A DNA stretch of 64,000 bases from contig NC_136003.1 of the NCBI RefSeq assembly GCF_048128805.1, positions 25,265,340 to 25,329,339 of the forward strand, written 5' to 3'. The position numbers and the translations under genes were made by a program. Below the pieces are notes generated by a model. The model made no database searches, had not been told where the DNA came from, and was given only the letters and a program-made list of their open reading frames with translations. The stretch comes from Centroberyx gerrardi. Its lineage: Eukaryota > Chordata > Actinopteri > Beryciformes > Berycidae. Of this stretch, positions 12,436 to 59,711 are shown in pieces (the stretch's first letter is position 1; each line of letters begins with the position of its first letter).

Positions 12436-14349
12436 CATCCCCTTCTTGCCCCAACCAAGAGTCACCAATAGGCCAGGAGACCACACCAACGCACTGACCA
12501 CCTGACAGATGGACTGATTGACTTCCTGCTTCAGGAAAGGAAACCCACCGCCCATTTTTACTTTTTGACCTTTTGAACTTTGACCTGCACTACCGCTGCC
12601 AGGCAGGGAGCTGGGAGAGTTGGTCCTTCTTCCCGCTCTTCCTCCTCCCTCCATCACATGGACCTTAAGCCATTGTAGTTACCATCCCAAACAACTGTAT
12701 TACATCTGAAGGCTGTCTCGATTGTACCAAACACACATATACACACAAGAACGGTTTGCACAGTTTAATGTATACCAAACTCTCAATGTTGGCATACCTA
12801 CAAAACGTACAATACATGTAAATACCATCAACAAACATAACTGCAAATTATGCCCTAACACACACTAGAACCTAATGTTTTATTTTATTCCTAAATGTTG
12901 GAAGTGCTTTTTGCAATGGGGGGAAAAAATAAATCTGTCATCCTTAAGTTTTAGAGATAAAAAAAAAAAAAATCAAAATGATCAAAAAATATTTTAAAAA
13001 AGATGAGGTAATAAATACCAAAAGTGGACACAAGACAAGGGCTTCTGTCAAGATTTTTCTTTTCACGCTTGAACCTGCAGATTTGCCATCAAACCCTCCG
13101 TTTTAATTTTGGAGTCGTTTCAACGCTCTGCTTGCCGAAGATGTGTGTGTGTGTGTGCCAGAAATGGCGTTCGTCGTTTGGAATACTTCTTCCCATCTGT
13201 ATTAACTTTCATGACCCACTCTCCAGCTTACTACACTAACAGAAGAAGCCCTGTTCAGAAGAAAATAGAACATTGACTGATAAAAATGGACCAGCTCAGT
13301 CCGGGAAAAGAATCGGTACGGACGAGGCTGGACTGTTCTGGGGAGGTCGAGGCGGTTCTGGTGGAGTTTGCTCAACGCGTTCATCAGCAGGGATCGGATT
13401 TCTAATAACACCTCTTGAATTGAGCATGAAAAGCAGTCAGGGGGCTCCAGGACATTGTGCAGGGTGGGTGGGATTGGGGGAAATACCCCGCTTCAAGTGT
13501 TTCTTATGTAAAATGTTGGTTGGAATTGCAAACAGATGTAAAAGAAATGGGTCTCACGGTGTTACGATGCAGGAAACGAATGTGAAGATGCAGGTGAATT
13601 TTTTTGAGCAAAAATAAAATCTAGAAGTTGCTGTGAGGTCTTTGCATGGTTTTTGTCAAGGGGGAAGTTCATGTTCAAGTTCATCATGTTTACACTGAGG
13701 ATATCCTGTATTTATTTTTCCCCCTATCAGGCTGGATTGGTTCTGAATCAAATTTAATGAACTTCAAAATCCAGGAAGTAATTAAGTAGAATGCAATAAA
13801 TAAAAGTTTTCTGATGGCATGTTTAGTGACCACTTTCTGGCATTAGTTGGTGCAGCTGGTACAATTGTGAAAGTAGTTTGTTTTTGTGTACATAAATACT
13901 GATTTGGTTATGGATTTATTTACAAAATTATGGCTTTAATTAAAAAAAATTGTCAGATTGACACAAAAATTGGATAGACCAAACCATAAAGCATAAATAA
14001 ATAAAAGCATAAATATTGACAGTGTTGCCTTCATAAAAAACAAAAAATCTAACCAACATTGACGCCTGTGCATTATTATTATTATTATTGACAATTTTCC
14101 CCATTAGATCCTATTCCAAATACACATGAAGCATATATCCACCAAAGCCGCCACACATCAGATTGGCACAACTAAAGTCATTTTTAGTAATTATTTGCAG
14201 TGCTGTGAATGTGTACATTATAATCTGCAGCTCCACACAAAATGTGACATTTATGTGACATCCAATGCATAAAGGGCCAATATGATAGAACAAGCCTTTC
14301 GTTATGAAATACAAAATCAGACGTCAGCCTCCCAGTGAACTTGACGTTG
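12436..14349. other. nmt1 3' UTR and spacer to retsat
   Basis: Non-coding. A canonical AATAAA lies at 12928-12933, about 500 bases after the nmt1 stop, just before an A-rich run at 12959-12974. Beyond it I see only AT-rich sequence, a short (TG)n run near 13143-13157 and an (ATT)n run near 14073-14090. Confidence 0.6.
12928..12933 (+). terminator. nmt1 polyadenylation signal
   Basis: A canonical AATAAA hexamer in the expected position downstream of the nmt1 stop codon. Confidence 0.6.
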
Positions 14350-14395
14350 ATTGGGTGAAACCGCCTGATACGAGCGAAAGGATGACTGTCATTGG
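14350..14395 (+). promoter_or_regulatory. Two inverted CCAAT boxes at the retsat 5' end
   Basis: ATTGG pentamers at 14350-14354 and 14391-14395 lie 95-140 bases upstream of the favoured retsat ATG. Two inverted CCAAT boxes spaced about four helical turns apart are typical of NF-Y promoters. If transcription starts downstream of them, the upstream in-frame ATG at 14304 is not used. Confidence 0.4.
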
Positions 14396-14489
14396 TCAGT
14401 GTAGCTGTCTGTCAGGCGTGTGGACGGTATTTCTACACGGACCTTGTCCAAACGCGGAAGTGGGCCCACACGCAGAGACACTCGGGACA

Positions 14490-17400
14490 ATGTGGATCAC
14501 TGTAGCTATAGTTTGTGTCGCTTTGGTCATATTTCTGTTGAAATATGTGTTCACCACTCCCGGGCCCTGTCCGTTTGAAGCGGACACTCGAGAGCCGCTG
14601 AAGCCGATGGTTCACAAGAAAGAGAAAAATAAAGTGCTGAAGCAAGGTGAGTTCACTGGAGGTCGTTATGGATTGTTAGGTAACTGTGGCTGCAAAAACT
14701 GAACTGTACAAAATTCATGCAAACAATAAATCTGTTGAGTTTGCTTTGCTTAAAGTGGAATATTATCCTGAACAGTTTTCACATGTTCATTCCTCTGACG
14801 CTGTCTGATCTAGATAGTTGTGTGTAGAGCAGCAAGTCTGTCAGTGTGGGAAACAAGAAACAAGTGTCACCAAAGAATGTGACTGTAAAGACTGGAACAA
14901 TTTGTACAGTGTCGTTGTGCTGCAATACAAGATATTACGTCATGTTTAGTGGTTACCAGGGACAGTTCTAGGATTTTAACTATAGATCCAGTTTTCCAGA
15001 ATATTAATAGAAATAGAGTTAATAGAGAGAGTAAAAATGTGTTGATATGATACTGTATTTCTGGAAGCCAGGGGAAACCGTGAAAGAAGGGACTCAACTT
15101 CAGACCAACTTTCAATCATAATACAATAAATCTTGAATTGATCTTTTGATAGATCATCACGTCTAGGTTTATCAAAGTAAAATCAATCAGATTCTAGCAT
15201 CACAATTGAATTGGAGTTACTAACATTAACATCTGAGAAGACAGTGTCATTTTGTTTTAGAGTGGTTGATTGTCACTGGTGCCATGACCACACTATTGAC
15301 CACATTTTGTTAACTCTTCCTCAGGTTTTCTGGCCAGTAAAGTCCCGGAGAACCTGGATGCCGTTATCATCGGCAGTGGGATCGGTGGGCTTGGGTTAGC
15401 GGTGCTGCTGGCCAAGGTTGGTAAGAAAGTCCTGGTCCTGGAGCAGCATGACCGGGCGGGAGGCTGCTGTCACACCTTCACTGAGAAGGGCTTTGAGTTC
15501 GATGTTGGTAAGAAGATCGCTCCTCTTGTCTGTATCGTGTTGTTATGCTCTCACCTCATTATTCAGAAACATCTCGCATCTAACGTTAGGAAAAGGCTGT
15601 GAAGGCTGGTGTTAGCGATGTGTTTTATCCTGATTTGAATTTCACATACTGGAAAAATATACTACTTGAACCTGCTTTCAAAACACACCTCAAAGTGAAG
15701 TCACAGGTCACAGGAAAATCACTTATCCCAGAGGTTTAAGCTGCAACTTTGCACGTTGGTGGAGCCAAATGGAAGTGAGAGATAACTGTTTGAAAAATTT
15801 GAACTTCAGTACCCAGAAATCCTGTAATGCGATGTCAGTAAACTGCACACAGCTCGCTCATGCAGGTGAGGTGATCATACCCAACACCAGAACTTGGGCA
15901 TTTGGGCGAATAGGGCAAATCTATGGGGTCTTAATTAGTGGGAATGGGATGCTCTCCTCAATTGCAGCCCCACTTTGTGATTTAGGCTGATTAGACAAAT
16001 GTATTCTTGCAAGTCAAGTCAAGTCAAGCCAAGTCAAGTTTATTTATATAGCCCTTTATCACAAGCATGTCTCAGAGGACTTTACAGAGAATGTGTGTAG
16101 CTAGGTCTAACTAAACACAATCAGTGGTGAACAAAATTATGTAGGACAAACATAGCGAAAAACACAAGGTAGGCAAGAGCAGATTTAGCAAGACAAACAA
16201 TCTACCTATTCTACATAGCCTAACCTACCCAGCACCCCAGCCTTAGACCCTAAATGCACACAAGGAAAAACTCCCAGGAAAACCTTAGTAGGAAAACTTG
16301 GAAGAAACCTTGGGCGGGCTGAGGCAAATAGGGATAAAAATCTTGCAAATAGGGATAAAAATCTTGCTTAATGCAGCTTTAAAATGTTGCCTTCCAGCAT
16401 GAAAGTCTTGGCCAACACTTAAGTCTTGGCCAACATTAAAAAATTTTGGCAACATGAAACCCCGCTGTGTCGTAATGCCGTCTGTCTTCCTCCCACAGGA
16501 ATCCACTACATTGGTGACCTGCTGGAGCACAAGCCCTTCCGCTGCATGCTGGACCAGATGACCAATGGGCAGCTGCAGTGGGAGCCTCTGGAGAATCCCT
16601 ACGACCAGGTGGTGCTGGGACCTCCCGACAACCGCCGCGTCTACCCCATCTACAGCGGCCGGACCCGCTTCCCCGAGGAGCTGAAGAAGTGCTTCCCTGG
16701 AGAGGAGAAGGCCATCGACGAGTACATGAAGCTGGTCAAGGTAGGATCCAACCAAATGGTGTGTTTGGTGGCCCTGGGATTGTTGGTGTACTTGTTTATT
16801 ATGTGTAGTTATTTGGGTTAGACCAATGTATCGGTTTGCCGATATATCAGGCCGATATTGGGCTTTTATTACATAATGGATATTAGTCACTCAGTGTTCT
16901 CCACTGCTGATAAGATGGAGGTTCCTCCCTGACCACAGCTACAGAAAAACCTATTGTGAAATTTCATTTTCTTTTTTTTTTTTTTTCATTTAATTTCTCC
17001 ATAATGTTTTTTTTGTGAATTAGCCTAATTTTTCATTTAAAGGCCTAATGTATCCCAGAGTTTCCTCTTACATTGAATAGGTGAGGTGGGTCACTCTGCC
17101 TTAAAGAGCTACTGACACTAAAAGGATTTCATCAGTCTGGGTTTCAGTGGAGAGTTTTAGTGTCCCATGATGGTCTAAATGCTGTTTCAGAGGCTTTTCC
17201 ACCCTGACAAGAATACAGTTCTGGGGGAAACACTGAATACTTGGATTTTCTGGCATGAAAATGGTCAAATCGGCATCTTCAATATTGGTATCTGTACCGG
17301 CCTTCAAAAACCCATATCGGACCTCACCAGTTGCTGACAGGAACGTGAGCTTTGCAGGGTGTAAAGTAATTTGTTCAGTGATGATCTGGCCACTTGCTTT

Positions 17401-20400
17401 CTTATCTAGGCCTTTGCTCTACTTAGTTAAATGTGCGAACGTCCTTTCCTCCCAGTGACCTGTGGGTGCAGAGCTGCACTTTAGCACAGAAAGGCCTCAT
17501 TCAGTAGATTTCTGTTGCTGTTGTCGCTGATAACCCTGTAGAGGGCAAGGGTTGGTAAATCAAAGGTTATCGAGTAATAAGACAAATCTTCTTATTAGTT
17601 GATTTATTACATAACTTCTACATACTTCCCAGACAAAGTTGCATCAGTGTTTTGCATGTGCAGCCAGATCAGGGTAGGTCACCTGTGATAAGGGAGGATA
17701 CATTGTTCTGTGGTAGACTATATCTTATATTTCTGAAGCTACCTAACAGCAAATGCTTTTTTTTGCTCTCTTATTTGCATTTGTTTTGTAACTGATATTA
17801 TGGTTAGGGTTACTGTTTAATTTGAATCCCACAGTTTCAGAGTACAGTGCCTTTTGTTGAGGAGAGCCAACTTTGCATGCTTATTTTAGTGTTAATATAT
17901 TTTAAACACACAAATTCTTCTACAACCATTGTAGTAAAAAAAAAAATTAAGCTGCAGTGAAAATATAGTCAAGCTGCTTTAGAAACCACATTTCACTAGT
18001 TTGTAGGAAAAAAAAACACAAGACACCAATTTATACTTTGGAAAATATGAGTGGAATCATTTATGGAAATCATTTTCATTTTCACTCCAGGATTGTGTGG
18101 CCTTAGTTTCTTCTCCAAATAGAGTTTACTTTACCAAATATTAAAAATAACAACATTTTGATTATGTTCACCTGCCAGTCTGTCATGCCCAGCGTCTGTG
18201 AGTCTGTCTGTGTGTTTTGTGTTCAGAAAACCGGCCGTGGTATTTGGCTCCTCGCTCTGCTGAAGCTCTGCCCCATCCCCTTTGCCAAGTTCCTGGTCTT
18301 CACTGGCCTGGCCAACCGCCTCTCCTTCTTCTTCAAAATTGCGTCCCGCAGCCTGACAGATGTGGTCAATGAACTGACGGAGAATAAGGACCTCAGGGCC
18401 GTCTTCACCTACATCTTTGGCACCTATGGTAGGCTAGGCTGCTGGGGGAAACTGTATTTACTGAACGTTAATTCTTGAGAGTGCTGTCTGTAATTCTAAT
18501 GTTTTGGCTCCATCTTCGACCTGCAGGCAACATGCCAAAGGACACCAGTTTCTCTATGCACAGTTTGCTGGTCGGTCACTACCTGAACGGCGCCTGGTAC
18601 CCTAAAGGAGGAGCCAGTGAAATTGCCTACCACATGATCCCCATCATTGAGAAGGCCGGGGGTGCCGTCCTCGTCCGAGCCCCGGTCAACCGCATCTTGT
18701 TCAATGACGCCAAGGAAGCTTACGGTAGGTTTGACTTTGACTCTTGGCTCTGTTTTTCTGTAAACACAATCGGAGCATGCAGCCCCCACAGAGGAGATGA
18801 TTCACTGTGTTTGTGTTCTGGTTGTTTTCATGGTTTCAGGTGTGAGCGTTATGAAGGGCCAGGAGGAAGTCCATATCCGCGCCCCCATGGTCATCTCTAA
18901 TGCCGGCATCTTCAACACCTACCAGAAGCTGCTGCCCAAAGATCTCCAGGCCATGCCAGGTGAGGGAGGGCATGGACTCAGAAGGGGTTTGGGGATACAG
19001 TAATTATGATAGGTGTAAGTGATGTTGCCATAAAACTATCGTGAATTACTTTTTTCATGACTTCAGTACAGCAATTTGTTTTCATTTCACTTGTGTCTGT
19101 GACCCATTTGTGAAGCTGTATGTGACACTCCTGCCTTGCAGCTATCCAGAAGCAGCTGAGTATGATGAAAAACGGTGAAGGCGGCCTGAGTATTTTCCTG
19201 GGACTGGATGGAACCAAGGAGGAGCTTGGCCTCAAAGCAGACAACTACTGGATCTTTTCCGAGAACAACTTTGATGAGCTGTACGTTGTTTTGCGTCTTC
19301 TCTATTGCTTCTTGTAGTTGATCATGGCCAACTACAGGCCTACCAACAAAAGGCTGCTGTTTAGTTTGCTGCCTTTTACAGCTGTCTCAGCTTTATCTTC
19401 GTCTGCAATTTACAGAATATCTGTCAGAATATCTGTCGTAACTGCTTTCCACATTGAGTGTGAAAGGTCAGGCTTTGCATGGACTTTGAGTTGCTGTGAT
19501 ACAATATAACTCAAGTGAGATAGTACTGGTTTCTTTTGATATGCCATACTTATCTGTTTCCTCAGACAATCTGTAATAGTGTTTAAGTGCCAACCAAAAG
19601 ACAAGATAAGGTTTTAAACTCAGCAACAATACATAGAATATAAAAAGATATTAGGACCCCCTGCTGTTTCCATTATAGACTGACCAGGTAAATCCAGGTG
19701 AAAGCTATGATCCCTATTGATCACACATATCAAATCCACTTTGTTCATGATGGGAAGACGGAGCTTACAGGGAGGAAACAGGTTCAAGAAGGATCTCCAT
19801 GCCTTGAAACAAGTGAGACTTGCATTGCAAAGGGGGGAAAGAGACACCATTAAGAAAGTGGTCCTAATGTTTTGTACAATCACAGAAACTTTTAGGTAAC
19901 TTTTTGTATCTTAATTGAAAAACTCCTGGAAAAACTGTTTAAATTCACCAAACTGACCTGCTTTCTCCTACAGGGTGGAACAGTATCTGAAGGGAAAGAG
20001 GGAGGAGTCGGCTAAAAAGGTACCTCTCCTGTTTGTAGCCTCTCCATCAGCTAAAGACCCGACCTGGGAGGAACGGTCACCAGGTACAAAGACTTGAGAC
20101 ACGGCACTTGTTTAGTTTAGTCACTCCATCCAGAACAGCATTTTGTCCTGTTTTCCAAAGCTTGCAGTGCAACTCATTCAACCACTCCCCTCTTTTTCCA
20201 TTTCCCCAGGCAAATCCACCCTCAGTCTGGTCAGCTTTGCCCGCTACGAGTGGTTTGAGGAGTGGAAGGATGGCAAAGTGTCGAACAGAGGGCCTGACTA
20301 CAAAGAGCTGAAGCAGATATTCATTGACTCTATTCTGGAGGTGGTTATGGACGTCTTCCCCAAGATTAGCAGAGACAAGGTAAAGATCGGGGGTTAATAG

Positions 20401-20801
20401 TTCTCTGGTCGTATGATACAACTTGATAATTCACTGTAGTTTCGTTCAGTGGTTCTCAACTTGGGGTCCGGGGACCACCAGGGGTCCTTGAGGAGGTTCC
20501 AGGGGGTCCCCAGCAAACTGATGAGTTGTTAAACTTCAGCATTATTTCATTTATAAGAAGTTAACTCAATGAAGAAATGTAGACTATTTGGATCATGGTT
20601 TCACTGTTATCTCTCTACCTACAATAGAGATAGTCATGGAATTCTAGACAAAATCATATCTAACAATAAAAATATTCAAATCAAATGGGCGTCCGTGGCC
20701 CTAATGTGGACTACAATAGGGGTCCTTGATATGAAAAAGGTTGAGAATCACTGGTTTAGTTGACACTTCCCTTGACAGTTCAGGTGCCTATTTGTCTTTC
20801 T

Positions 20802-20835
<34 letters not shown>

Positions 20836-21316
20836 GTTGAGTACATTGATGCTGGCACCCCCATCACAAACACACACTACATCGGAGCCCCCAAAGGCGA
20901 GATCTACGGAGCGGACCATGGCATTGAACGCTTCAGCCCTGAACTCAACGCTACTGTGAGACCTCAGACTCCACTGAAGAACCTCTACCTGACAGGTCAG
21001 TGTGTCTCTGCAGCACATCACCACCACACCCAGTCACAGTGTTGGCATCACATTTCCATTTCCCGACAGGACCATATGTCCCGCAAACAGCACACACCAG
21101 CTTTGATGAAAGTCTTATCACGCATTGTCCAAATGGAGTTTTTATGTTGTTGGTTTTTGTATTCCAGGCCAGGATGTGTTTGTGTGCGGCTTCGCTGGCG
21201 CTCTGGCCGGCGCTCTGACCTGTGGCTCCGTCATTCTCAACCGCAACCTGCATCTGGATGCCATCGCCTTGGCCAAGAAAACTAGATTTCAGAATTCCAA
21301 AGTGAAGGGGGAGTAG
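14490..21316 (+). CDS. retsat: All-trans-retinol 13,14-reductase (retinol saturase)
   Basis: Flavoprotein oxidoreductase of the ER membrane that saturates the 13-14 double bond of all-trans-retinol. Eleven exons: 14490-14646, 15325-15507, 16499-16740, 18227-18428, 18527-18724, 18840-18959, 19142-19280, 19974-20083, 20210-20379, 20836-20995, 21168-21316. They total 609 codons plus stop (human protein is 610 aa). The N-terminus is a hydrophobic signal-anchor ([17 protein letters not shown]). A dinucleotide-binding fold follows near residue 66 ([11 protein letters not shown], ending [16 protein letters not shown]). Other conserved blocks are [47 protein letters not shown], and the C-terminal FAD motif [20 protein letters not shown]. 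An in-frame ATG at 14304 would add 62 residues. I prefer 14490 because it gives the anchor at the N-terminus as in known family members. Intron 3 is long (about 1.5 kb) and repeat-filled. Confidence 0.95.
16016..16330. repeat. Dispersed fish repeat in retsat intron 2
   Basis: Starts with AAGTC pentamer reiterations, then TTTATTTATATAGCCCTTTA and TCACAAGCATGTCTCAGAGG, a block very common in fish genomes. A second partial copy lies at about 10905-10960 in an nmt1 intron. The family name was not determined. Confidence 0.6.
16822..17345 (-). repeat. Dispersed repeat family R1, copy A
   Basis: Ends rich in TATCGG/CCGATA words surround a core containing AGAGGCTTTTCCACC and ATGATGGTCTAAATGCTGTT. 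Relatives occur at about 24075-24250 (core only), 41035-41440 and 62975-63400. The last of these carries the same core in the opposite orientation (GGAAAAGCCTCTGAAACAGC). Confidence 0.7.
20447..20753. mobile_element. hAT (Charlie-like) MITE in retsat intron
   Basis: The terminal inverted repeats are CAGTGGTTCTCAAC on the left and CAGTGATTCTCAAC when the right end is read inverted. Flanking 8-mers GTTTCGTT (20439-20446) and GTTTAGTT (20754-20761) match at 7 of 8 positions. CAGTGGTTCTCAAC is the classic end of Charlie-group hAT elements. The length of 307 bp and lack of an ORF make it non-autonomous. Confidence 0.8.
20804..20834. repeat. (TG)n tract abutting a retsat 3' splice site
   Basis: About 15 TG units run directly into the AG of retsat exon 10 (starts 20836) and take the place of the usual pyrimidine tract next to the acceptor. 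Confidence 0.92.
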
Positions 21317-45100: not shown

Positions 45101-48100
45101 CCGAACACGTTTGACGGCTGTTTCTACAGGGAGCGCTCTCCTCCCTCGGCCTGCGCCCCGCCTCCCTGTGGAGATGCTGCTGCAACAGAGCTGGAGCAGG
45201 ACCTGAGTGTCCTCTGCCAGACCAACACACCCATGTGAGTCTGTTTTTTTTTTTTTTTTACAATGGATTATGAGATTATTAGGCTTTGTCACAGCCATAT
45301 CATACATATCTTAAATATTCAGGGATGAGGTTGAGTAAATCCACCTACACTCAGATTACTTAGCTTTTTAACCACAGAATAGAGTTCACCCACCTGTTTT
45401 AGGCTGATATAAATTAGACATAAATTACTTAAGTAGTAATAATATTCTGTGAGTTATGTGATAGTCTTGTAAGGATCAGAAAGTATAATTGATTTTTGTT
45501 TATACTGGTGGTTGTTTGCCTTATGCCAATATGGTTTATCCACCTTTTTATTTACCACTACATCACTGATTATATTGATATTGTCAATACTGACTGACAG
45601 ACACTGGATTTTGGAAAGCATTCTTTGTTTTAAGTGGGTTTCCATGGAGACCAAACTAACGCCTTAAACTTGTGTGTGTGCTACATTTGTGCAAACATGA
45701 TGTAACACATGATGTTTGGTGCAGACTGACCTCAGCTGTAGCAGAGCACCGGCGTGCGGTGCGTCCGTCCCGTCGGACCCAGGGCTCCAGGAACCCTCTG
45801 CGGGCTCTGGCAGCCCGGGACGACATCAGGCAGGACTACATGGGGGAGAGAATCAATGTAGCTACCGAGGAAAGCAACAGGATCCAAGCAGAGAATAGTG
45901 AGTCAGAACTTTCCCCAACTTCCCACTCTTTTTTGTTTTTTTTGGCTGCTTTCACTCTCTCTTCACTTTTTCTCCCCCGTTGCTCATCTGTCTCTTCTTG
46001 TGTCTGTTCCTCCCACCAGAGTCTAAGAATTCCTCCATGGCGGATTTGCGGCTTGCCAGATCAGAAGACTTCAGCAGCGTCGCCGCCTCAGATGCAGCGA
46101 CTAACAAGTCCAACCCTCCCTTCAGCAGCCTCATGCTCATTCACATCAAAGGTCAGAAGAGAGATGTGTGTGTGTGTGTGCGCGCCTGGGTGTCTGCATG
46201 CGAGTATGCGTGACAATCCCTGTGTGTTCCTGCGTTTATATTAACTGGTACCTGTGGTGACAGGTAGGCGGCAGGTCCAGGCCCGTCTGGTGGAGCCCTC
46301 GGTGCGGTCTCTGAACAGCGGAGACTGCTTCCTGCTCGTCTCTCCAGACCGCTGCATCCTGTGGAGCGGAGAGTTTGCCAACGCCCAAGAGAAAGCCAAG
46401 GTACCAGTGAGGATGCTGACCCTAACATGCTGTAATGTCAATGTCCTGCTAACCTGGTGCAGCTTAGTCTGCGATCAATACAGTATGTTGTCAGCATGAA
46501 ATACATAAACACTCTTTCTGGGTGTTACCATATCCCAAATGGGTGATGTCATGACAGTACTGAGGATGCTTAGCGCTCTCAATTCACACAATCAAAATCA
46601 CCTTTATTCATGTATATATGTATGCATTACACACACAGGGTTGGGTAGGTGTACTGTGTAATGTATTCCATTACAGTTACTAGTTACCTCATCAAAACTG
46701 TAATCAGCAACGTAATCTAAGGGATTACCCACACTCAGTAATATATTCTGATTACTTTCAGTTACTTTCATATTACTTTGCTGTTCAAACTTCAGGAAGA
46801 GGACTTAGAACACCTGTCACTATTTAAATGGCCTTGTTCTCATTTTCACTTTAAAAATATCCCCAGAAGTAATCCTCTAATTTTTCACAACTATCTGTAA
46901 TAAGAATACATCATTTTTTTAGGTAACATAACAGAATACAGTTAAATTTTTTGTGTTTAGAACATGTAATGCAGTTCAGGCAAGAAATTTAACCGGGACT
47001 GCAAGAAACCATATTTGGGATTTAATATCCCAGTCTGTCAGTGCTGTTGATGTTTCCAAACACACCTTCAGACTGCAAAAGAAGATGGCATGATTTGAAG
47101 CGGAGAACAAAGGAGAATGTAGGGGAGCTTTATTCATTTATTTTTCATGACACAATTGCATCCTGTCACTGCATCCTTTGTTTGTCATTGCATCTCACTG
47201 CATCCCAAAATAAACTAGAAGGGCACTCGGAGAGCGCAGACCTCCGCCAAGGCCAATCCAGTCTTCTATGATATGCAAATGTGCAAGCGCAACCAATATG
47301 GAATGGGTTCTTCCTTGGCCCATGCTACACCCTTCCACCAAGTTTCATGAAAATCGGGCCAGTAGTGTTTCAAAAGTATATTATATACATGTATTATTAC
47401 ATGTATACATGTATTCTATATTTATTCTGTTCAAAAGCTTTGTTTGATTATTGTTATCATCAGCAGCTAATTATTACATTTAATGGGGGGGACTATTTAA
47501 CTTTTTCCATTACTGCACACTGGTGGCAGTGACAAGGCAGAATCAGAGCGGGTGCAGCAGAAGGAAAACCGCTCTCAGATTGGCCCGGTCGGCCAAAGGT
47601 GCTACTGGAACTGCAATACCGCCACAAACAACACTTCCATGTTGATTTTTTAATTTGACACCGCTTGGCCAATAAGCGAAAAAAAACTCTCTGAAAATGG
47701 TCAGTAAGTGGTCATGCAAGCTATGGTATTAGGAGATGCTGGAGATGAATTCATTTCAAAACAACAGCTGCATATTCACATGAACAGGCATTAAGGTGTT
47801 TGCAGACTGTGCCATTTTGTCCATCTTATTGCCGTCCCAGACACATTTTTCACATCTGGGAAATTGTCTTCAAAGATGGTTAGCAGTCTTTGTTCATTCA
47901 GTGGGACAAGGTCAAGATCAGCCAATCCATGGAACGGCCTTAATATGTAGCCTACAGTCTGACAGGCTGATAATAAAGATTTTACTTCTCTCCAATTACA
48001 CAGTCCAACATAAAGTGAACGCAAAAGACGGTTACAATCACACAGTCTGCAAAAAGCTTCAGCTATGTAGCCCCATTCACACTTAATCATTTTTTACTCA

Positions 48101-51100
48101 TTTACACTTACTGTGCCAGGGGACGCTCATAATCCAGATGTAACATTGAAAGTAAACAAAGTGGTGAATCTCCTCTCAGGCAGAATGTAACTACTTTTGA
48201 TACGATTGCAGCTGCAATGATTGTGGCCTTATTAAGTTGTGTTAAAAAATAAAATACTCATGTTATTTAAAATGATGGATTACATTCGTCAATGCAGCGT
48301 TATGTCTCTGAGCAGTTTTTAATGGATTTTAAAAAACAATAGGAGCCTTTGACTTCTGGGAGGTCGGACAAACCTGCAGTAGAACAGACAGTAGGTGCTT
48401 CTGACTGGCAAATACATCGGTGGGTTTAGACTTTGCATGGGCATTAAAGGGTATATGTGTCACATTTCTGCCTTACTGAAGCATAATATGACTAGTAAAT
48501 ATCAGCAGAGGTTCCTGAATAGTAGTGAGTGAAACAAAGTGAACAGCCACGGCGCACGCGCTGCAGAGATTTCTGCATTCACCTGCTCTACTCTGTACCT
48601 AAATTAAGGCTGACACCTAGTTCCCAACATTACCCATTATTTCTAAACTTGCTATTGGTCTCAGCAACAACCGTCTGAAAGGACCTGAGGACCACACTGG
48701 AAAAAAGGCCACTTCAAAAATAAGTAAAAAAAAAATTAAAACAAGATGTTTTTTGCTTGTAATAAGTAAAAAAATCTGCCAATGGAACAAGTGAAAATTC
48801 ACTTGTTAAGATTTCTTGAAATAAGATTTGATATTTAGGCCTTTCAAGATAAAAGAGATCTTGAAATTAGCTGGGAAAACTCATTTTTAGCTATATTTTA
48901 CTAGTATTAGGAAGTGTTGTGTCTCATAATAAGCCTGTAATGCTCAGAAGTAGTATTTTTTCCCTCAAAAGTAGCTTTTTGTTTTTTTTACCGTTGATGT
49001 CATCCTCTTCATTTCAAGTGTATTTAACTTATTTTAAGTTCTATAATAGTGACACTGGTCTAGATTTAAGACCATCACCTACTTGAAATAAGATTAGAAA
49101 GTGATATTTAAGCATTTTAAGATAAAATATGTCTTGAAGTTAGCTGGAAATACTCATATTGAGCATTTGTTACTAGTATTAGGAAGTGCTTTTTGTGTCA
49201 TAATAAGCCATAATTCTCCAGCCTGGCATCCTTTTCATTTCAATTCAAGTGTATTTAACTTATTGTAAGCTCTACAATAGTGATGTTGTTCTAGATTTAA
49301 GACATTCACCTACTTCAAATAAGACTGAAAAAATGAAAACTAGTCTTGCATTAAACCAACAAATGCTTTATTTTCTCTGCATAAAAGGAACCGTGCTTTT
49401 AACTTTTTAGCTCTGTGGAATGCAGGAGTAAACATACAGTTCTGACAAACCAGTGCATTACATGGAGACTTGTAACAGCAGTGTATGACTGGAGCACCAT
49501 TCACCCCTCCCTCTCTCCCTCCCTCCAACCATCCTCTTTCGCCACACAACAAAAGTCCCATGGACAGAGGTCTGTTTTTAAGCTATGCAGAACATTTGCA
49601 TAGAATGAATACAATTTTGCACTGGCATTAGTTTTTTCCAATATGTTTTGGCTCACAGTGTGTATGGAACTGTAATAAAAATAAGGAAAACATAGCAGAA
49701 CATGCCAAATATGTGTGTGGGTTAAGGTCGGACCCGAACATCTGACCAATGTGTCCCTCAATACACCTACAAATTGCTCATTATTGTAACATTCAAATTA
49801 AGGGTTTTGGGCTAACATTAACGTTGGGCTAACTTGGCTAAATTCCAACCAAGAATCAATGGCAATGACCGTGGATTGTAGGAGCCTAGAATAGAATCGC
49901 AGAGAGAGAGAGAGAGAGAGCGAGAGAGAAAGAGAGAGAGAGAGAGCGAGAGTGAGAGAGAGAGATCTATCCTATAGTCCACATCTAACCATTGGCTTTA
50001 TTGGCCATGCCCTTCTTGTAAGATGGTGTGAGATCTCGCTCATGGATTGTGTCCAAGAGGACCTCCGCTTGTATGACTGAAAGCAGAGTGGCTACACACT
50101 TGGGGTACGTAAGGTGTAGGGCATAATAGTAGGCTATAAGGTATAAAGCACCCTCGGTAACCTTGTCTTTTGGGAACGTAGTTATCGGCACATCTCCTAC
50201 AGCCAGGAGGCAGTTGGACGAACTCATAATCAGGACTGGACAGGAGAGAGGGTGCTTCTTCAAGTAGGCATCGGGGTCTTCTTTTTCCTTAAACACATAA
50301 CACAGACATCCTTCAATCAGGATAATGCACTTTTGTTTCAAGGATCATTTCGGTATTTTGGAACCTAAGCCATTTTAGAAGGTTGTTTACAATCAAATAT
50401 AACTTTCCAAAGCAAAATTCTGACGAAAGGTGCAGTACTGAGAAAGTTACAGCTGAAGTTGCTGCTTGTAACTGCCCCAATGCATTTCCTGTTCACATAC
50501 GTTGTAAGCCTTCCAAAACACTGAAAACGTATGTTTTCGAAATCAATAGGCTTAAAGAATAGCAAAATGCGTCTCTGCTGTACAAAATTGTGTTGCTAAA
50601 CACACTGTATTTGAATTTATAGGAATGTATTTAGATTTGTTGGGCTAGCCAAGGCTAGGCTAGTCTTGCAAGGTCTTCATTAGGTCTATAAAACCTGCTA
50701 CTAACCATGTAATGCGTCCATTTTTTGTACATACTGTAACATTGAGAGCTACACACACAAATCCTGTTTCCAAAAACAAATGTTTTGGGTGTCTTTGAAG
50801 GCTTAGAACATACAGTATGTGAATAGGAAATACATTGAGAGCAGTTAGAAGCAGCACCTCCAGCTATAACTTTTTCAATACTGCAGTAGAAATTATCCTG
50901 TAACGTTTTACACAGCTCACCTCGAGGACATGCACCAGAGCCTCACTCGCATCTTGTAGCCTCTTCGGAGGAGCAGACGTAGAGGGGAACAGTGATGGCA
51001 GCACACGTAGGATCCCGACAGCCTGTTCAACTGTTGAGGAAAAGATTCATTACTTTTACACTTACATAAAACGCATGAGATCAAATCTGATCAACGGTAT

Positions 51101-52779
51101 ACAACAGATATAATGCTTTAAAAAACAGAAACATTCAACGAACGATGGGATAGCCATCATAGATGAAAAAGAAGAAAGACAAGAAAAGACACTAGCACAT
51201 GAACTTGACAATTAACATGCCCTAATATCCACCCTGACCCTGATCACTAATAACATCAAAACATCATTGCTTACCTTTGTCTATTCCCATTGGGGGTTTC
51301 AGCATCTTTTTCCATACGCCAAAAAACTGCACCTTCTGGCAGAAGTCGTGCCATCTTCCCTTCAGTTCATCAATGTAGTGGCTGTTATCCTTGTCCAAAA
51401 TGCGTCGAAGCTCCCCCATCACCTATGAAATATATCCAATATACCAATACAGACATTTGAATGCATCACTTAGGAGGAGGAAATTGGTATATAAAACATT
51501 GTTCTGTGTGGTACCACGTTTTGAATTATGCCCAGTCAATAATGACTTGCATGTCCAATGTCCTTGAAACAAGGATATGCCTCTAGAATTTTCTCGTGTC
51601 TGTCCTCCTCGCGAACGGAATTGGAATCAATGAATGCTCTTCTGGCCGCAAATTCCAAATCCAGGAGCTGAGAGACAGAGTCCATGGTTGCTGGACTGTC
51701 GGTGTCTGGACTGTCGATGTCTGCAGGCTTGTTAGCTGTAAGACACAAACATACATAATTAAACCCTTGTGCTTCACTTTAAAAAAGTTCCTTAAAGGAC
51801 AAAAATGTCTGTGTCAAAAAACTGCCATAAAAATATTATATATTAATATTATTTTCCACTTTCACTGAGTTAAATCTTTGAACCAACTTCAGCCCTGATC
51901 ATAACTACCAAATATTCATTCATTTTTCAGAATTTTAACCCTTTAAATGCCAGTTTGTTTACATAATGCAACTGTTGTTTTTTATGAAAAAAAACAAAAA
52001 ACACAAAAATTGAATTATTTTCTGTATACTAAAGTAGAAAGAAAGCTGAGGATCTCCTGTGACCTCACAATGAGCTGCTATACACAGGAACACACAGGCG
52101 CTCATCTGCATAGGCAGACTCCAGAGGTGAACCTTAAGTCACAATGGCTGAGGTGATGAAGCTGAACATTCCATGGACAATAAATACCAGTGTTGAGGCT
52201 TCAGCCCGTCATAAGGCGACTGAGACTCACAGTGAACCTCAACACAGCGGAAATCGTAACCTCAGGACTTTTTTCGACACAACCTACAAGGAATCTGAAT
52301 CTGACTTACAAGTTTGATGACGGTAAGTAAAGACTTTAACTTTCTCAAATTAATATTAGGAAATATTATCAATGTAAAATATTAGAAATGTGGCGAAATG
52401 TGGGGAAGGTAAAAGGGCACCTGTTCTCTAGCTCTCTAGTCTCTCCTCTATTGGAGAAAATGGTAGAAAAATGGGAAATTATGTAATATATATATATTTA
52501 ATTATCTGTCCAAACTAACCCAGACTGTTCAGGGTGATTTAGTGTACAAGTGCATGCTTGGTACCCATTTTAGTGCGTGTTGGCCCAGTATGGGTTATCC
52601 AATCTTTAAGCCACCTTGATTCTCAGGTTGAACTGCACTACATGTCCCATGATGCATGTCAGTCATAGTGTTAACACAGAACTTGAGTAGATATAATGTA
52701 GTTTCAGTAAAAACAAAGATTTGAGTGATCTACCCTGCCCCCGACTTCACACACACACACACACACGCACAGGCACACA

Positions 52780-52811
<32 letters not shown>

Positions 52812-55800
52812 GCCATCATTCCTAAGTCTGTGTATTTGCAGATTGACTCAATTTCTAATAGACTTACTTGTCATTTTTAGCTAGGTATAGGCCTTTTTAG
52901 CCCTTCCCATAATGCTTTGCTTTACCAGTCGTTCCGCTCAATACACCGCCAGCTGACTGCCGTTGAGTCGTACTGAAGAGTGTAATACTGTGGCTGTAAC
53001 TTAATAAAGTGCCTATAAACAACTAAATCAGAGTTAATGTTACTTGATTGGACATTTCCAACTCGTTAGTGGAACACCAAGTACTTTTAATCAAGATGAT
53101 CAACCGGGACAAACTTATTTCAGATTACTTGAGATATTTGGTCACAGTTAGCTAGCAGTTTGAGAGGTTGTAATCACCGACTTGTGGTTGTACTGGGAAA
53201 TTAACTAAACTAAAAAATAAATATGAGTAAATGTTGCCTTATAAGTTTTCAGCTGTCATTGTATTTATCTGACTATCAACTATTTTTTTGTGAGTGAAAA
53301 TTTCAACATACAAGTTCTCAGATCGCATTCTTCAAGTTCTCAGATCGCATTCTACAAGTTCTCAGATCAAGTCTACAAGCTCTCGGGTTTTGCAACATAA
53401 ATACCTTCATAAGCATTCCCTGCACTATATTGGGATGTAGGTTGTGTTTGTGAGACATGGAGATGAAATGAAATGACAATTAACCATTATTCTTCTTCTG
53501 CTCTTCTCTTCTTCCAGACGCTCATACTGAGCAAGGACTCTGTCAGGAGGGTCCTCAAGGGGGCACTCTTACAGGAAGATGACCAGCGATACAGCTGTCG
53601 AGCAGAACGCAGGCTAGTCTGGAGTCGGCTGATCAATTTGATCAATAAGGTCAAGGTCACCAATCCAGACCTGCGCTTCACCGACAATCCAAAAGAGGCC
53701 ACGCTGCATCTCAACCTTGAGAACGCACTCTGGATGTTGTCAACTCACTACTTGACAGTACTGGATATGCTGGAATACGCGAATCCATCCAACTCCGGAT
53801 CGGCACTTTGGGATACGTTGTTCGTTGTTGTACCTTCCCGTGCACCCCAGCCATCCCGTACCTCCCGGGCCTCCCGTGCCCCCCAGGCCCCGCGTACCAC
53901 TCAGGCCTCCGGTACCACCCAGGCCTCACGTACCACCCAGGCCCCGCGTACCACCCAGGCCCCACGTACCACCCAGGCCTCGCGTACCACCCAGGCCCCG
54001 CGTACCACCCAGGCCTCCGGTACCACCCAGGCCTCCGGTACCACCCAGGCCCCGCGTACCACCCAGGCCTCGCGTACCACCCAGGCCCTGCGTACCACCC
54101 AGGCCCCGCGTACCACCCAGGCCTCCGGTACCACCCAGGCCTCCGGTACCACCCAGGCCTACCACCCAGGCCTTGCGTACCCCACAGGCCTCGCATACAT
54201 CCCAGTTCTCCCGTACCACCCAGGCAACCGGTACCGCCCAGGCCTCGCGTACCACCCAGGCCCCCTGTACTACCTATGCCCCGTGTACCGCCCAGACCCA
54301 GCGTACCAGCCAGGCCCCGCGTACCACCCAGGTCTCCCGTACCTCTCAGGCCACCAGTACCAGGCTGACAACGATCTGACCCCAGAAAGTGAGCATGAGG
54401 CTGCCTCGACGTCCGCTGTAACAACTGTTAATGAGGACATTCTGGATAAGGACTCCGAGTCAGCCCTCACTGAGTTGGCAAACAAACTCAGGGCTGCCAC
54501 TGAAAGAGCCGAGGCCAGTATGGATTTGATAGAGAAGAAGTCTCTTATGGCCTCAGACAACTTGGCTCCAACTGATAAGGCAGCAGATGCCACTATGGAC
54601 AGCAAGGTGTCTGATACCCCTGACCTTCCTCCAAGCAACTTGGCCACAAACTGCCTGGGCAAAACCAACAGCAAGGCAGTTGAGTCGGATGACAGCCAAG
54701 TGAAAAAGCCAAGGGCAAAAAAAGAGAAGGGTAGCACAAGATTTTTCAGAGGACTCTGGAAATTTCTGACCTTCACGCCTGATATTGAAGACGACCATGC
54801 TGACGTTTACTTTGCGGAGGACTTCGCTTGGGACGTCACTGTTCAAGCTCCCAGCCAGAGGGAGAAAAAAAAGACGTGCATCGAACAGGAGGAGGACGAT
54901 GCTTCAGACGTCAGTGATGAAGCCCATGGCAAGAGGGCAAAGAAGAAGAAGGGTGTCAGGAGATTTTTCAGAGGCTTCTGGAAATCTCTCGCCTGCACAC
55001 CTGATATTGAAGACGACCATGCTGACGTTTACTTTGCGGAGGACTTCGCTTGGGACGTCACTGTTCAAGCTCCCAGCCAGAGGGAGAAAACAGACGGAAG
55101 AGGACAATGCTTCGGCCTTCAGTGATAAAACTAAGAGGCCGAAGAAGAAGGGTGTCAGGAGATTTTTCAGAGGCTTCTGGAAATCTCTCACCTGCACATC
55201 TGACATCAAACAGGAAGACCACCATGCTGAAGTTTACTTTGCTGAGGACTTCGCTTGGGACGTCACTGTTCAAGCTCCCAGCCAGAGGGAGAAAACAGAC
55301 AGAAGAGGACGATGCTTCGGCCTTCAGTGATAAAACCAAGAGGCCGAAGAAGAAGAAGGGTGTCAGGAGATTTTTCAGAGGCTTCTGGAAATCTCTCACC
55401 TGCACACCTGACATCAAACAGGAAGACCACCATGCTGAAGTTTACTTTGCTGAGGACTTCGCTTGGGACGTCACTGTTCAAGCTCCCAGCCAGAGGGAGA
55501 AAACAGACAGAAGAGGACGATGCTTCGGCCTTCAGTGATAAAACCAAGAGGCTGAAGAAGAAGAAGGGTGTCAGGAGATTTTTCAGAGGCTTCTGGAAAT
55601 CTCTCACCTGCACACCTGACATCAAACAGGAAGACCACCATGCTGAAGTTTACTTTGCTGAGGACTTCGCTTGGGACGTCACTGTTCAAGCTCCCAGCCA
55701 GAGGGAGAAAACAGACAGAAGAGGACGATGCTTCGGCCTTCAGTGATATAACCAAGAGGGCAAAGAAGAAGAAGGGTGTCAGGAGATTCTTCTGGAAATT

Positions 55801-58800
55801 TCTATCCTTCATGCCTGACCCTGAACAGTAAGACCACTAAGCTGAAGTCACTGTTCAAACCCACAGCCTGTGGGTTCAAACCCACAGGATCTAGAACAAG
55901 AAGAGGATGATAACACAAACAGTGTAGATTAACATCATAGAACCACCTACCTCCATCTGTTTCCCTCTTCAAAATAATAAAAAAAAATAATCTACATATT
56001 ACTTTGTTGGTTATATATTATTTTATTCATTGCTTTTTAATATGCTGAATTTACAACCTAGTGCACTATGATGGTGCATCAATGAGACATCATCTTAAAA
56101 TATTATATAATATAATATTGAGGGGCAAATTCACAAAAGGATTGCGCGGCTATTGCTGACGCTAAACCTGTGCAAATAACACAAAAAGAAACCGTGTAAT
56201 TCACAAAGCACTCGCAAAGGGTGACATGCCCCGCTAACTGCGCTGCCACGCAATAGCGTCTCGGTGCTCCTGTGCTATTTGCACGTATTTTAGGTAATAT
56301 GTATACATTTGGCGCAAAATTGGCCCCTTTCTATGCAAATGAGCCTCATTGCAAAAACAGTCCAATTCACAAAGGTCGGCGCTAATTGCCACACGCAGTT
56401 AGAGTGAAATTATTAGCGTCTTCAGAGAGTTGGTGGTAACTGAAGCGCATTTATAAGGGGTGTCACGCCCAGACTGTATCACTTGTTAAATTAACTGAGA
56501 ATTGAATTGAATTGACCTTGCAAATGTCTCTGCAACAATTCCTTTGTGTGACCTAAAAAATAAAATTGTCTGTACATACAGTCTGTAAATAATATTTTGA
56601 CATTAGTATTATTATTACTATAGAACTTTAACACAGATTGCTTCACAAACAGAAGCAAATAAATCAGTACAACCAAACAATCAATACAACTCAATTTCTC
56701 ACTCTGAAAATATTTTCACTTATCTCACTAGTCAGCACAGTGGGCTTTATTTTGGCCTAAAGATTCAGCACCATGGACAGCCCCGCTCAAACTCATTTAC
56801 AGTATTACCTCCGCCAAGGAGGTTATGTTTTCGGTGCGTTTGTTTGTGTGTTTGTTTGTCTGTCTGCAGGATTACGGAAAAACTACTGGCCCGATTTTCA
56901 TGAAACTTGGTGGAAGGGTGTAGCATGGGCCAAGGAAGAACCCATTAAATTTTGGAGCGGATCCGTATATTGGTTGCGCTTGCACATTTGCATATCATAG
57001 AAGACTGGATTGGCCTTGGCGGAGGTCTGCGCTCTCCGAGTGCCCTTCTAGTTTATTTTGGGATGCAGTGAGATGCAATGACAAACAAAGGATGCAGTGA
57101 CAGGATGCAATTGTGTCATGAAAAATAAATGAATAAAGCTCCCCTACATTCTCCTTTGTTCTCTGCTTCAAATCATGCCATCTTCTTTTGCAGTCTGAAG
57201 GTGCGTTTGGAAACATCAACAGCACTGACAGACTGGGATATTAAATCCCAAATATGTAAATATATGAAATATAAATTTCTTGCCTGAAGTTTTGAGGAAT
57301 GCCTCTGCACCTCGTCCGTCAGGACTTGCAGCTCGCGGTCTAAAAAAATCATTTTTCTCTAAGGCAACATTTATACTTTACCACATTGATAATTGCAATC
57401 AGATGCAAAACAGGGGCAAATTGTACTCAGTTGCAACAGGTTATGGGCGTGTTTGCGCTGGCATATCATTAGCGCAATATCTTTTGTGAATCGGTCCTTG
57501 AGACGGAGCAAATAGCGGTTGCAAATGATACGCAATTCATGGTGCTATTAGCGGCCGCAATCCATTCTTTGTGAATTCGCCCCTGAATGTGTTGTTCTCC
57601 AGGCCTCGGAGCTGGCATCGGTCATCCAGAGCCAGAGGGACCTGGGCTGTCAGGCCTCCCAGGTGCTTCATCTGGAGGAGGGGCTGAACTCCGACAGCAG
57701 CCTGGCCGCAGACTTCTGGAGCCTTCTAGGAGGAAGGATGCAGTACAGAGGTCAGAGTTCAAACCGGCTACTTGGTCGCAAACTTCCCCAGTTATCCCCC
57801 AAAAAGTAGACTGATTTGTCACTTCATTGAACACATAAAACAAAGGGACAGATGATAAAAAAGAGGACTAGCTTGACCTTATTCAGAAAGGCTGTCCATT
57901 TCTGCATTTACATTTTACTGTACATTTTAGGCATTTCGCTGATGTTTTTATCCAGAGTGACTTTTAACCAGAGCAACAGTAGAATAAGCTTCAGTTCCTT
58001 GATTACCAAAAACAAGGAACCAGTAAGAGATACAGAGAGAGGCAGAAGGGATTTTTCTACTTTACCTTTCTTTAAATGTATTTGTGTGCAGCTGGATAGT
58101 ACAGTATGTTTTTCTGTATGCTGCTGCCCACAGGAGCAGGAGCGCCGGAGGAGGATGATCAATTCGAGCTGGGTGTGGTGGAGTCCAACTGTGTCTACAG
58201 ACTGGTGGAGAACAGACTGGTGCCTCATGAACAGGCCTGGGCTTCAATACCCAGCATCTCCCTGCTGGGCCCCAGTGAGGTCAGGCTCTTCTAGATTCTG
58301 GTTGCATAGTAGATATTTTTGCTGATTATTAATTAATATACAAGATTACATGTGTGTGTGTCTCCAGGCCCTGGTGTTTGACTTTGGCAGTGAGGTGTAC
58401 CTGTGGCATGGAAAGGATGTTTCCCCTAGCAGCAGGAAGGTTGCTCTACAGCTGGCTCAGCAAGTGTGGGTGGGAGTTTATGACTACAGCAACTGTAGAG
58501 TCAACCCACTGGATCCCACACAGTGTAACCCCAGCATACAGCTGTAAGTCCACATTACAGACACTGAAACTCCAGAATAGAGCTGTAAAACCACATTACA
58601 GACACTGAAACCCCAGAATACAGCTGTGAGTCCATATTATAGATGCTGAAACCCCAGAATACAGACACTGTAAACCCAGAATACAGCTGTAAATCTAGAT
58701 TACAGACACTGAAACCCCAGAATACAGCTGTAAAACCACATTACAAACTCCAAAACCTCAGAATACAGCTGTGAGTCCACATTACAGACACTGAAACCCC

Positions 58801-59711
58801 TGAATACAGCTCTAAATCCACATTACAGACACTGAAACCCCAGAATACAGCTGTAAAACCACATTAGAGACACTGAAACCCCAGAATACAGCTGTGAGCC
58901 CAATTACAGACACTGAAACCCCAGAATACAGCTGTAAATCCACATTAGAGACACTGAAACCCCAGAATACAGCTGAGTCCACATTACAGACACTGAAACC
59001 CCAGAATACAGCTGTAAATCTAGATTACAGACACTGAAACCCCAGAATACAGCTGTAAATCCACATTAGAGACACTGAAACCCCAGAATACAGCTGTGAG
59101 TCCACATTACAGACACTGAAACCCCAGAATACAGCTGTGAGTCTGCACTACACGTGGTAAAATAACAGTGTGTAGCTGTAAGTCCCCACTACACATCGAG
59201 ACCCCAGCATACTACTGTAGATCTACAATAAACATAGTAAAACCAAAGCATATGGCTATAATCCCACACTACACATGGTAAAACCCCAGCATACAGTATT
59301 AAGTCCACACCACATGCAGTAAAACCCCAGAGCGCTGCTGTAGGTCCACACTACACACAGTAAACCCAAAGCACACTGCTGTAAGTCCACACCACACACT
59401 GAAATACTAGCATGCAGTCGGAAGGTAAAAGCCCACTCTTCCTAGAAGTCTAAATTACTTGTACAGTAACCCTACACAACTGTAATGCCACAATACTCTC
59501 ACTGAAACTACAGCACACTAAGACACAGCATGCAACTCTACTGTAAATCCACACTACACTCTGCAACCCAATGTATAGCCATAGACACTATACACACTAA
59601 AGCCCAGAATATACCTATATGTAGAAGTATAAGCAATGCAGTAACCTGAAGCTCCACATATATGTGATTTACAGTAACATGGAAAAATAGGCACATTGAG
59701 GGAGATAGTTA

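Follow-up and report, generated by a model that had tools for sequence, protein, structure and literature searches.

The NLR-C and PIM-like families are lineage-specific amplified gene families of teleosts, and gene segments can move through circular intermediates. A further kind of described system is the nested gene: the part of the published account used here (PMC3933685) presents the LRRTM genes in alpha-catenin genes as nested genes lying within introns.

The locus considered here lies in an intron of the supervillin gene (SVIL) of Centroberyx gerrardi, in a window of 64,000 nucleotides that is the whole stretch of DNA analysed (assembly GCF_048128805.1, NC_136003.1, positions 25,265,340 to 25,329,339). 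Like the NLR-C and PIM-like families, the gene found in this intron has many intact copies, near-identical and diverged, clustered and dispersed, together with fast-evolving repeats; unlike them, it has an N-terminal domain and C-terminal modules for which no Pfam family rises above its cut-off. As with LRRTM and alpha-catenin, to the extent covered by that part of the account (PMC3933685), the whole gene sits inside a host intron, with the difference that the SVIL-intron gene is a recent segmental insert and one of many copies. Our joint reading, to which we assign a probability of roughly 70%, is that of a two-exon gene from a family that grew in clusters and by dispersed segmental duplication, carried by a repeat unit in the SVIL intron and encoding a putative scaffold protein. 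With about 49 loci, a conserved modelled domain and a record of recent movement, a fish "orphan" of this kind becomes testable as a family. Literature searches for a gene nested in supervillin and with four family peptides found no paper, and related queries showed nothing on the family among the papers listed, which does not mean that it is unpublished.

The nested gene and its paralogues

Every element of the two-exon model proposed in the first-pass annotation was seen: a start codon, a GTAAGT donor at 52323, an acceptor ending at 53517, a phase-0 join and a frame of 537 codons (Table 1). The coding part of exon 1 is ATGACG alone (52317-52322), and at base level ATGACG/GTAAGT joins TTCCAG/ACG at 53518 in phase 0. 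The proposed nesting in a supervillin intron also held. With a stretch of human SVIL as the query, tblastn placed SVIL exons upstream (46272-46403) and downstream (57573-57749, starting at 57603 as judged by the acceptor), all on the strand of the nested gene, and a complete gene lies between these two host exons. The gene had further been drawn to 55831; its stop codon already falls at 55125, within the second module. A frame upstream of the start codon, opening with an ATG at 52144 and closing with a TGA at 52317, was rejected as an alternative coding exon: it carries indels in loci L021 and L024, the latter without the ATG. The intron of the nested gene contains a 22-bp tandem repeat at 53309-53384.

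Table 1. Features of the SVIL-intron insert, in window coordinates
Feature	Position	Strand	Remark
Inverted partial copy of the inside of the Harbinger-like element	46975..47363		Matches 56877-57288
Segment found after the gene's 3' end in other loci	47364..48694		Upstream of the gene here
Four exons of a gene of presumed fish SAMD3-like type	49985..51735	-	Head to head with the nested gene
TATA-like box (AATAAATA)	52179..52186	+	Found in 12/12 alignable paralogous loci
Exon 1	52212..52322	+	5' end inferred, ~30 bp past the TATA-like box
Intron 1 (GTAAGT...TTCCAG)	52323..53517	+	
Exon 2, coding part including stop codon	53518..55125	+	537 codons in total with exon 1
N-terminal domain	53518..53835	+	~106 residues; confident predicted fold
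18-bp minisatellite	53846..54362	+	TTQASR-type, then YHPGLA-type hexapeptides after an internal frame change
Acidic middle	54363..54738	+	Basic KKPRAKKEK end
Two in-frame C-terminal modules	54739..55125	+	Basic-aromatic amphipathic helix and acidic-aromatic tail
Further module copies	55160..55870	+	Out of frame, untranslated in this copy
Poly(A) signal AATAAA	55976..55981	+	
Non-autonomous element, presumably Harbinger-like	56122..57583		16-bp inverted ends (one mismatch), TGA on both sides; 3' unit boundary of the gene

The gene had been described as an orphan, and as a singleton it is not one. Searched against its own genome, the N-terminal domain gave 57 matches on 16 contigs, which fall into 50 groups at a 4-kb gap and about 49 loci, one frame on C1 being split. 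No internal stop interrupts 54 of these matches, three contain internal stops, and several further partial matches look like remnants. Among the best 36 (79-100% identity), the frame that holds the match is open over 490-2174 codons in 35 cases and over 163 codons in one, on C21 at 17.11 Mb. A search with the 72-residue module yielded 150 matches; of its 185 candidates, 150 were scored. The exon structure is shared as well. The TATA-like box, present in each locus aligned over exon 1, takes the form TATAAATA in L027; the start and donor ATGAC[GC]/GTAAGT are kept in 11 of these 12 loci; and the acceptor CTTCTTCCAG precedes 17 of 19 domain rows at the same place or within one codon, the other two being internal domains. 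Many paralogues with a common exon structure make this an amplified multigene family, and our data show the nested gene to be a member, coding in character, of a real family amplified within the C. gerrardi genome.

Copies are clustered on C14, with five at 3.02-3.05 Mb, on C17, where three lie within 25 kb, on C23, where 0.3 Mb contains seven loci, and, more loosely, on C5. In the tree, the window copy groups with copies on C11, C17 and C18 (support 98/91). Distant members on C21, C12 and C1 hold two or three domains per frame. One of the loci, L029 (C1:17453300-17456300), is possibly an ancestral-type member; it belongs to an open frame of 2759 codons in which the N-terminal domain occurs three times (39-43% identity), along with long internal repeats.

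For the domain of the window copy, dN/dS (NG86) lay at 0.25-0.35 in each of the 11 comparisons with members at 79-88% identity. Four nearer copies gave 0.25-0.81, the near copy L016 gave 0.81 and L025 gave 0.46, and the 11 most distant rows gave 0.39-0.73. Of the 351 pairs in all, 341 were usable; the ratio was below 1 in 323 of these, with a median of 0.56, and variable sites in 16 main-family rows were distributed 24/20/41 over codon positions 1/2/3 (p=0.012). The dN/dS, codon-position and tree counts are not independent, since the rows are related. Judged from these substitution patterns, the N-terminal domain is under constraint.

C-terminal modules and the standing of the window copy

The minisatellite centre and the fast-evolving character that had been ascribed to the gene were both borne out. 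The suggested amplification of the C-terminal module stands for the DNA, which holds a real 208-bp array (successive spacings of 222, 199, 208, 208 and 208 bp), but not for the protein, where no more than two copies stay in frame. The spacings shift later copies out of frame, and 55126-55831 is therefore noncoding in this copy. Compared with the first linker there is a 14-bp gap, which shifts the frame in the second copy and the three full ones that follow, so that the second in-frame module runs into a frameshifted tail and the protein ends in GRGQCFGLQ (this and the following ends are given up to the stop codon). Frameshifting through the module array was considered and rejected, as this gap, shared among copies, accounts for the shift. 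Because the shifted end was found in seven of eight near-identical loci, it is no assembly slip; the eighth, L016 on C21, is cut off earlier, being truncated to 146 codons. The end RKFLCCMPDPEQ occurs in five loci (L018, L019, L022, L024 and L028), FMPDPEQ in L025, APSQRN in two C14 loci and SGTE in two C21 loci, and the PDPEQ frame of other members persists in the window as a remnant ending at 55831. The window subfamily would have lost its MPDPEQ-type C-terminus by frameshift, and unit duplication would then have spread the loss.

The 15 most amphipathic 18-residue segments of the protein are all located on the two module helices, with a moment of up to 0.68. On that ground we infer binding to a membrane or another acidic surface. 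Combining an N-terminal binding domain with basic-aromatic amphipathic helices, the protein could be a scaffold or tether, in which the domain would associate with a partner or with itself, the hypervariable minisatellite spacer would set reach or valence, and the helices would bind membrane (or calmodulin or nucleic acid).

It is possible, if on balance unlikely, that the family is functional and the SVIL-intron copy a passenger, a segmental duplicate of recent origin that is now silent or on its way to extinction. The frameshift common to the near-identical loci and the truncation of L016 are consistent with such a fate, and since the C-terminus of its subfamily is frameshifted, the window copy may be drifting. 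A recent arrival is also suggested by the gene that stands head to head with the nested gene: its region is co-duplicated in six of seven judgeable near-identical loci at 95.5-97.8% identity (L014 is without it, and L015 ends before the gene). Against this, the frame, the TATA-like box, and the start and splice sites of the window copy are intact, and dN is lower than dS against each of the four near copies, if barely so for L016. The four exons of the neighbouring gene, which we take to be SAMD3-like, are open when joined, and its first intron is GC-AG. Pfam gave no match in this gene, and no SAM domain was found upstream of this minus-strand gene, in what was a weak test.

The insert unit and its spread

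Near-identical copies of large parts of the insert are found on C11, C17, C18 and C21, and the copies differ in what adjoins the gene. In nine of 20 loci mapped (L014, L017-L019, L022-L025 and L028), the gene is followed by the segment that starts at 47364 in the window. At base level, the 3' end of the gene in L014 and L025, ATATTGA, runs directly into GTGTTTCAAAAG, which is window sequence from 47364 onwards (junction ATATTGA/GTGTTTC); the order in L024 was likewise read at base level. In the window itself, ATATTGA is followed by the 1.46-kb element and not by this segment. At 12.47 Mb on C17 (L041), the element is followed directly, and in direct order, by the 47364 sequence, and in the 10.2-Mb cluster on the same contig (L012) the 3' end of one unit is separated from the start of the next, at 47505, by a partial element plus some 1 kb of other sequence. 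The insert is one repeat unit (47364-56122), with its usual 3' flank now upstream of the gene.

Considered as a whole, the family has grown in the clusters on C14, C17, C23 and C5 and by dispersed segmental duplication. On the simplest reading, the element would have entered a junction between units of a tandem array, and one unit would then have been copied into SVIL. The join into SVIL was complex, because an internal piece of the element is present, in inverted orientation, on the left side of the insert. The unit may have travelled as a circle, by a template switch or through activity of the element itself. Its ends differ from copy to copy: on the left they fall at 47364-47366 (L040, L041, L043) or 47505 (L039, L042, L012), and on the right at 56117 (L009), 56372 (L013), 56758 (L012), 57254 (L010), 57586 (L016) or 57600 (L015). 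As in movement through circular intermediates, unit and 3' flank stand in a permuted order when compared with other loci; unlike in such movement, excision from a tandem array would account for this order just as well.

More tentatively, and with considerable doubt on our part, a new vertebrate domain with its own fold may have founded a spreading family, from which a cassette whose ends coincide with a Harbinger-like element was dropped into the SVIL intron. If this were true, the cassette would comprise the nested gene and the head-to-head gene, moved as a unit into a conserved cytoskeletal gene.

That the 10-kb insert as a whole is a transposon, with the gene as its cargo or as the transposon's own protein, appears improbable. 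The intron content does have inverted arms of about 400 bp at both ends, up to 99% complementary, and large insert portions are near-identical on the four contigs named above. However, the right arm falls within a separate element that has inverted ends of its own and is flanked by TGA on either side, and the left arm is an internal fragment of this element without that end, so the arms were rejected as the ends of a single 10-kb transposon. Terminal inverted repeats with a target duplication do not bound the insert, and, besides the element, the copies showed no terminal sequence shared by all of them. Inspection of the list of open reading frames by eye revealed no transposase frame.

The element, whose Harbinger-like identity is our assumption, holds a sub-threshold Myb/SANT-like remnant. 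It stops some 20 bp short of the supervillin 3' splice site, which places it in the SVIL branch-point region. A 41-bp minisatellite of about 18 copies or more occupies 58520-59399 in a supervillin intron.

The N-terminal domain and the coding character of the frame

To return to the reading as a two-exon family gene, its N-terminal domain is conserved across paralogues and has a confidently predicted fold, in line with the earlier description of the N-terminus as non-random. An alignment of 27 rows (A1) has invariant N49, P50, L65, L74, L85, W98 and F102. AlphaFold2 reached a pLDDT of 92.4 and a pTM of 0.85 with this alignment, versus a pLDDT of 44.8 with a single row. The modelled order (E3-5 H6-20 H27-48 E53-55 E63-65 H67-75 H81-86 H96-101 E102-104) points to a predicted alpha/beta fold. 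Fold searches against PDB and viral models gave no convincing match to the predicted domain, and a profile of the 27 members found nothing significant among PDB sequences. In Pfam-A, the window protein scored 23.1 bits with Cementoin (cut-off 27; in the minisatellite), 13.2 with DUF6468 (26.9) and 10 with Imm42 (27.2); for the 27 members, nine families appeared at E<=1 (best E 0.012), none of them in the window copy and none at its cut-off. In the sense of a gene outside the known Pfam families, the term orphan therefore remains apt, and the domain is undescribed as far as the searched libraries go.

A diverged ADP-ribosyltransferase-type domain is highly improbable. Pointing to such kinship is a weak similarity to the NCBIfam model XopAI, that of a bacterial ART-fold effector, which matches 16 of the 27 members (best E 1.3e-5; 6.2e-4 for the window copy), with none of eight reversed or shuffled controls matching any model at E 1. 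However, the window copy scores 19 bits against a cut-off of 300, and the match (model positions 54-129 of 251) stops before the beta-sandwich lobe at any offset to the 296-residue protein, in which this lobe comprises residues 194-296 according to the part of the XopAI account used here (PMC6829252). The domain, at 106 residues, is without such a lobe, and the NAD-binding beta-sandwich beside a helical lobe that marks R-S-E mono-ADP-ribosyltransferases is absent from the model, which has four three-residue strands. The 27-member profile found no chain of this type among PDB sequences at E 10, the fold searches listed none, and no Pfam family was at its cut-off. We did not file the domain as an ADP-ribosyltransferase because the XopAI score is far under the cut-off and the catalytic lobe is unreached.

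Simulated sequences were first-order Markov sequences of the same composition. They were open over 53518-53835 in 96 of 5000 cases, over 54364-54956 in one of 5000 and over 53518-55125 in none of 5000, and the longest stop-free run was 552 codons here versus 236 in 20 simulated windows. Codon-usage scoring, trained on a small set of 660 SVIL/RETSAT codons only, ranked frame 0 best among the forward frames. Over the N-terminal part, a reverse frame with three stops outscored frame 0, and composition-matched null sequences reached the observed score in 515/3000 cases for the N-terminal part, 232/3000 for the middle and 22/3000 for the module. For the N-terminal and middle parts, the support from codon usage is weak, and the reverse frame scores higher over the former; for these reasons the coding case rests on the paralogues. 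A chance open frame in intron DNA, lengthened by a minisatellite that is stop-free in all three forward frames, is a negligible prospect and is refuted by the paralogue data, the unrepeated parts being open and conserved over about 49 loci with an excess of third-position changes. Elsewhere in the window, at 14289-21285 on the plus strand, lie the exons of a further gene, presumably retinol saturase-like.
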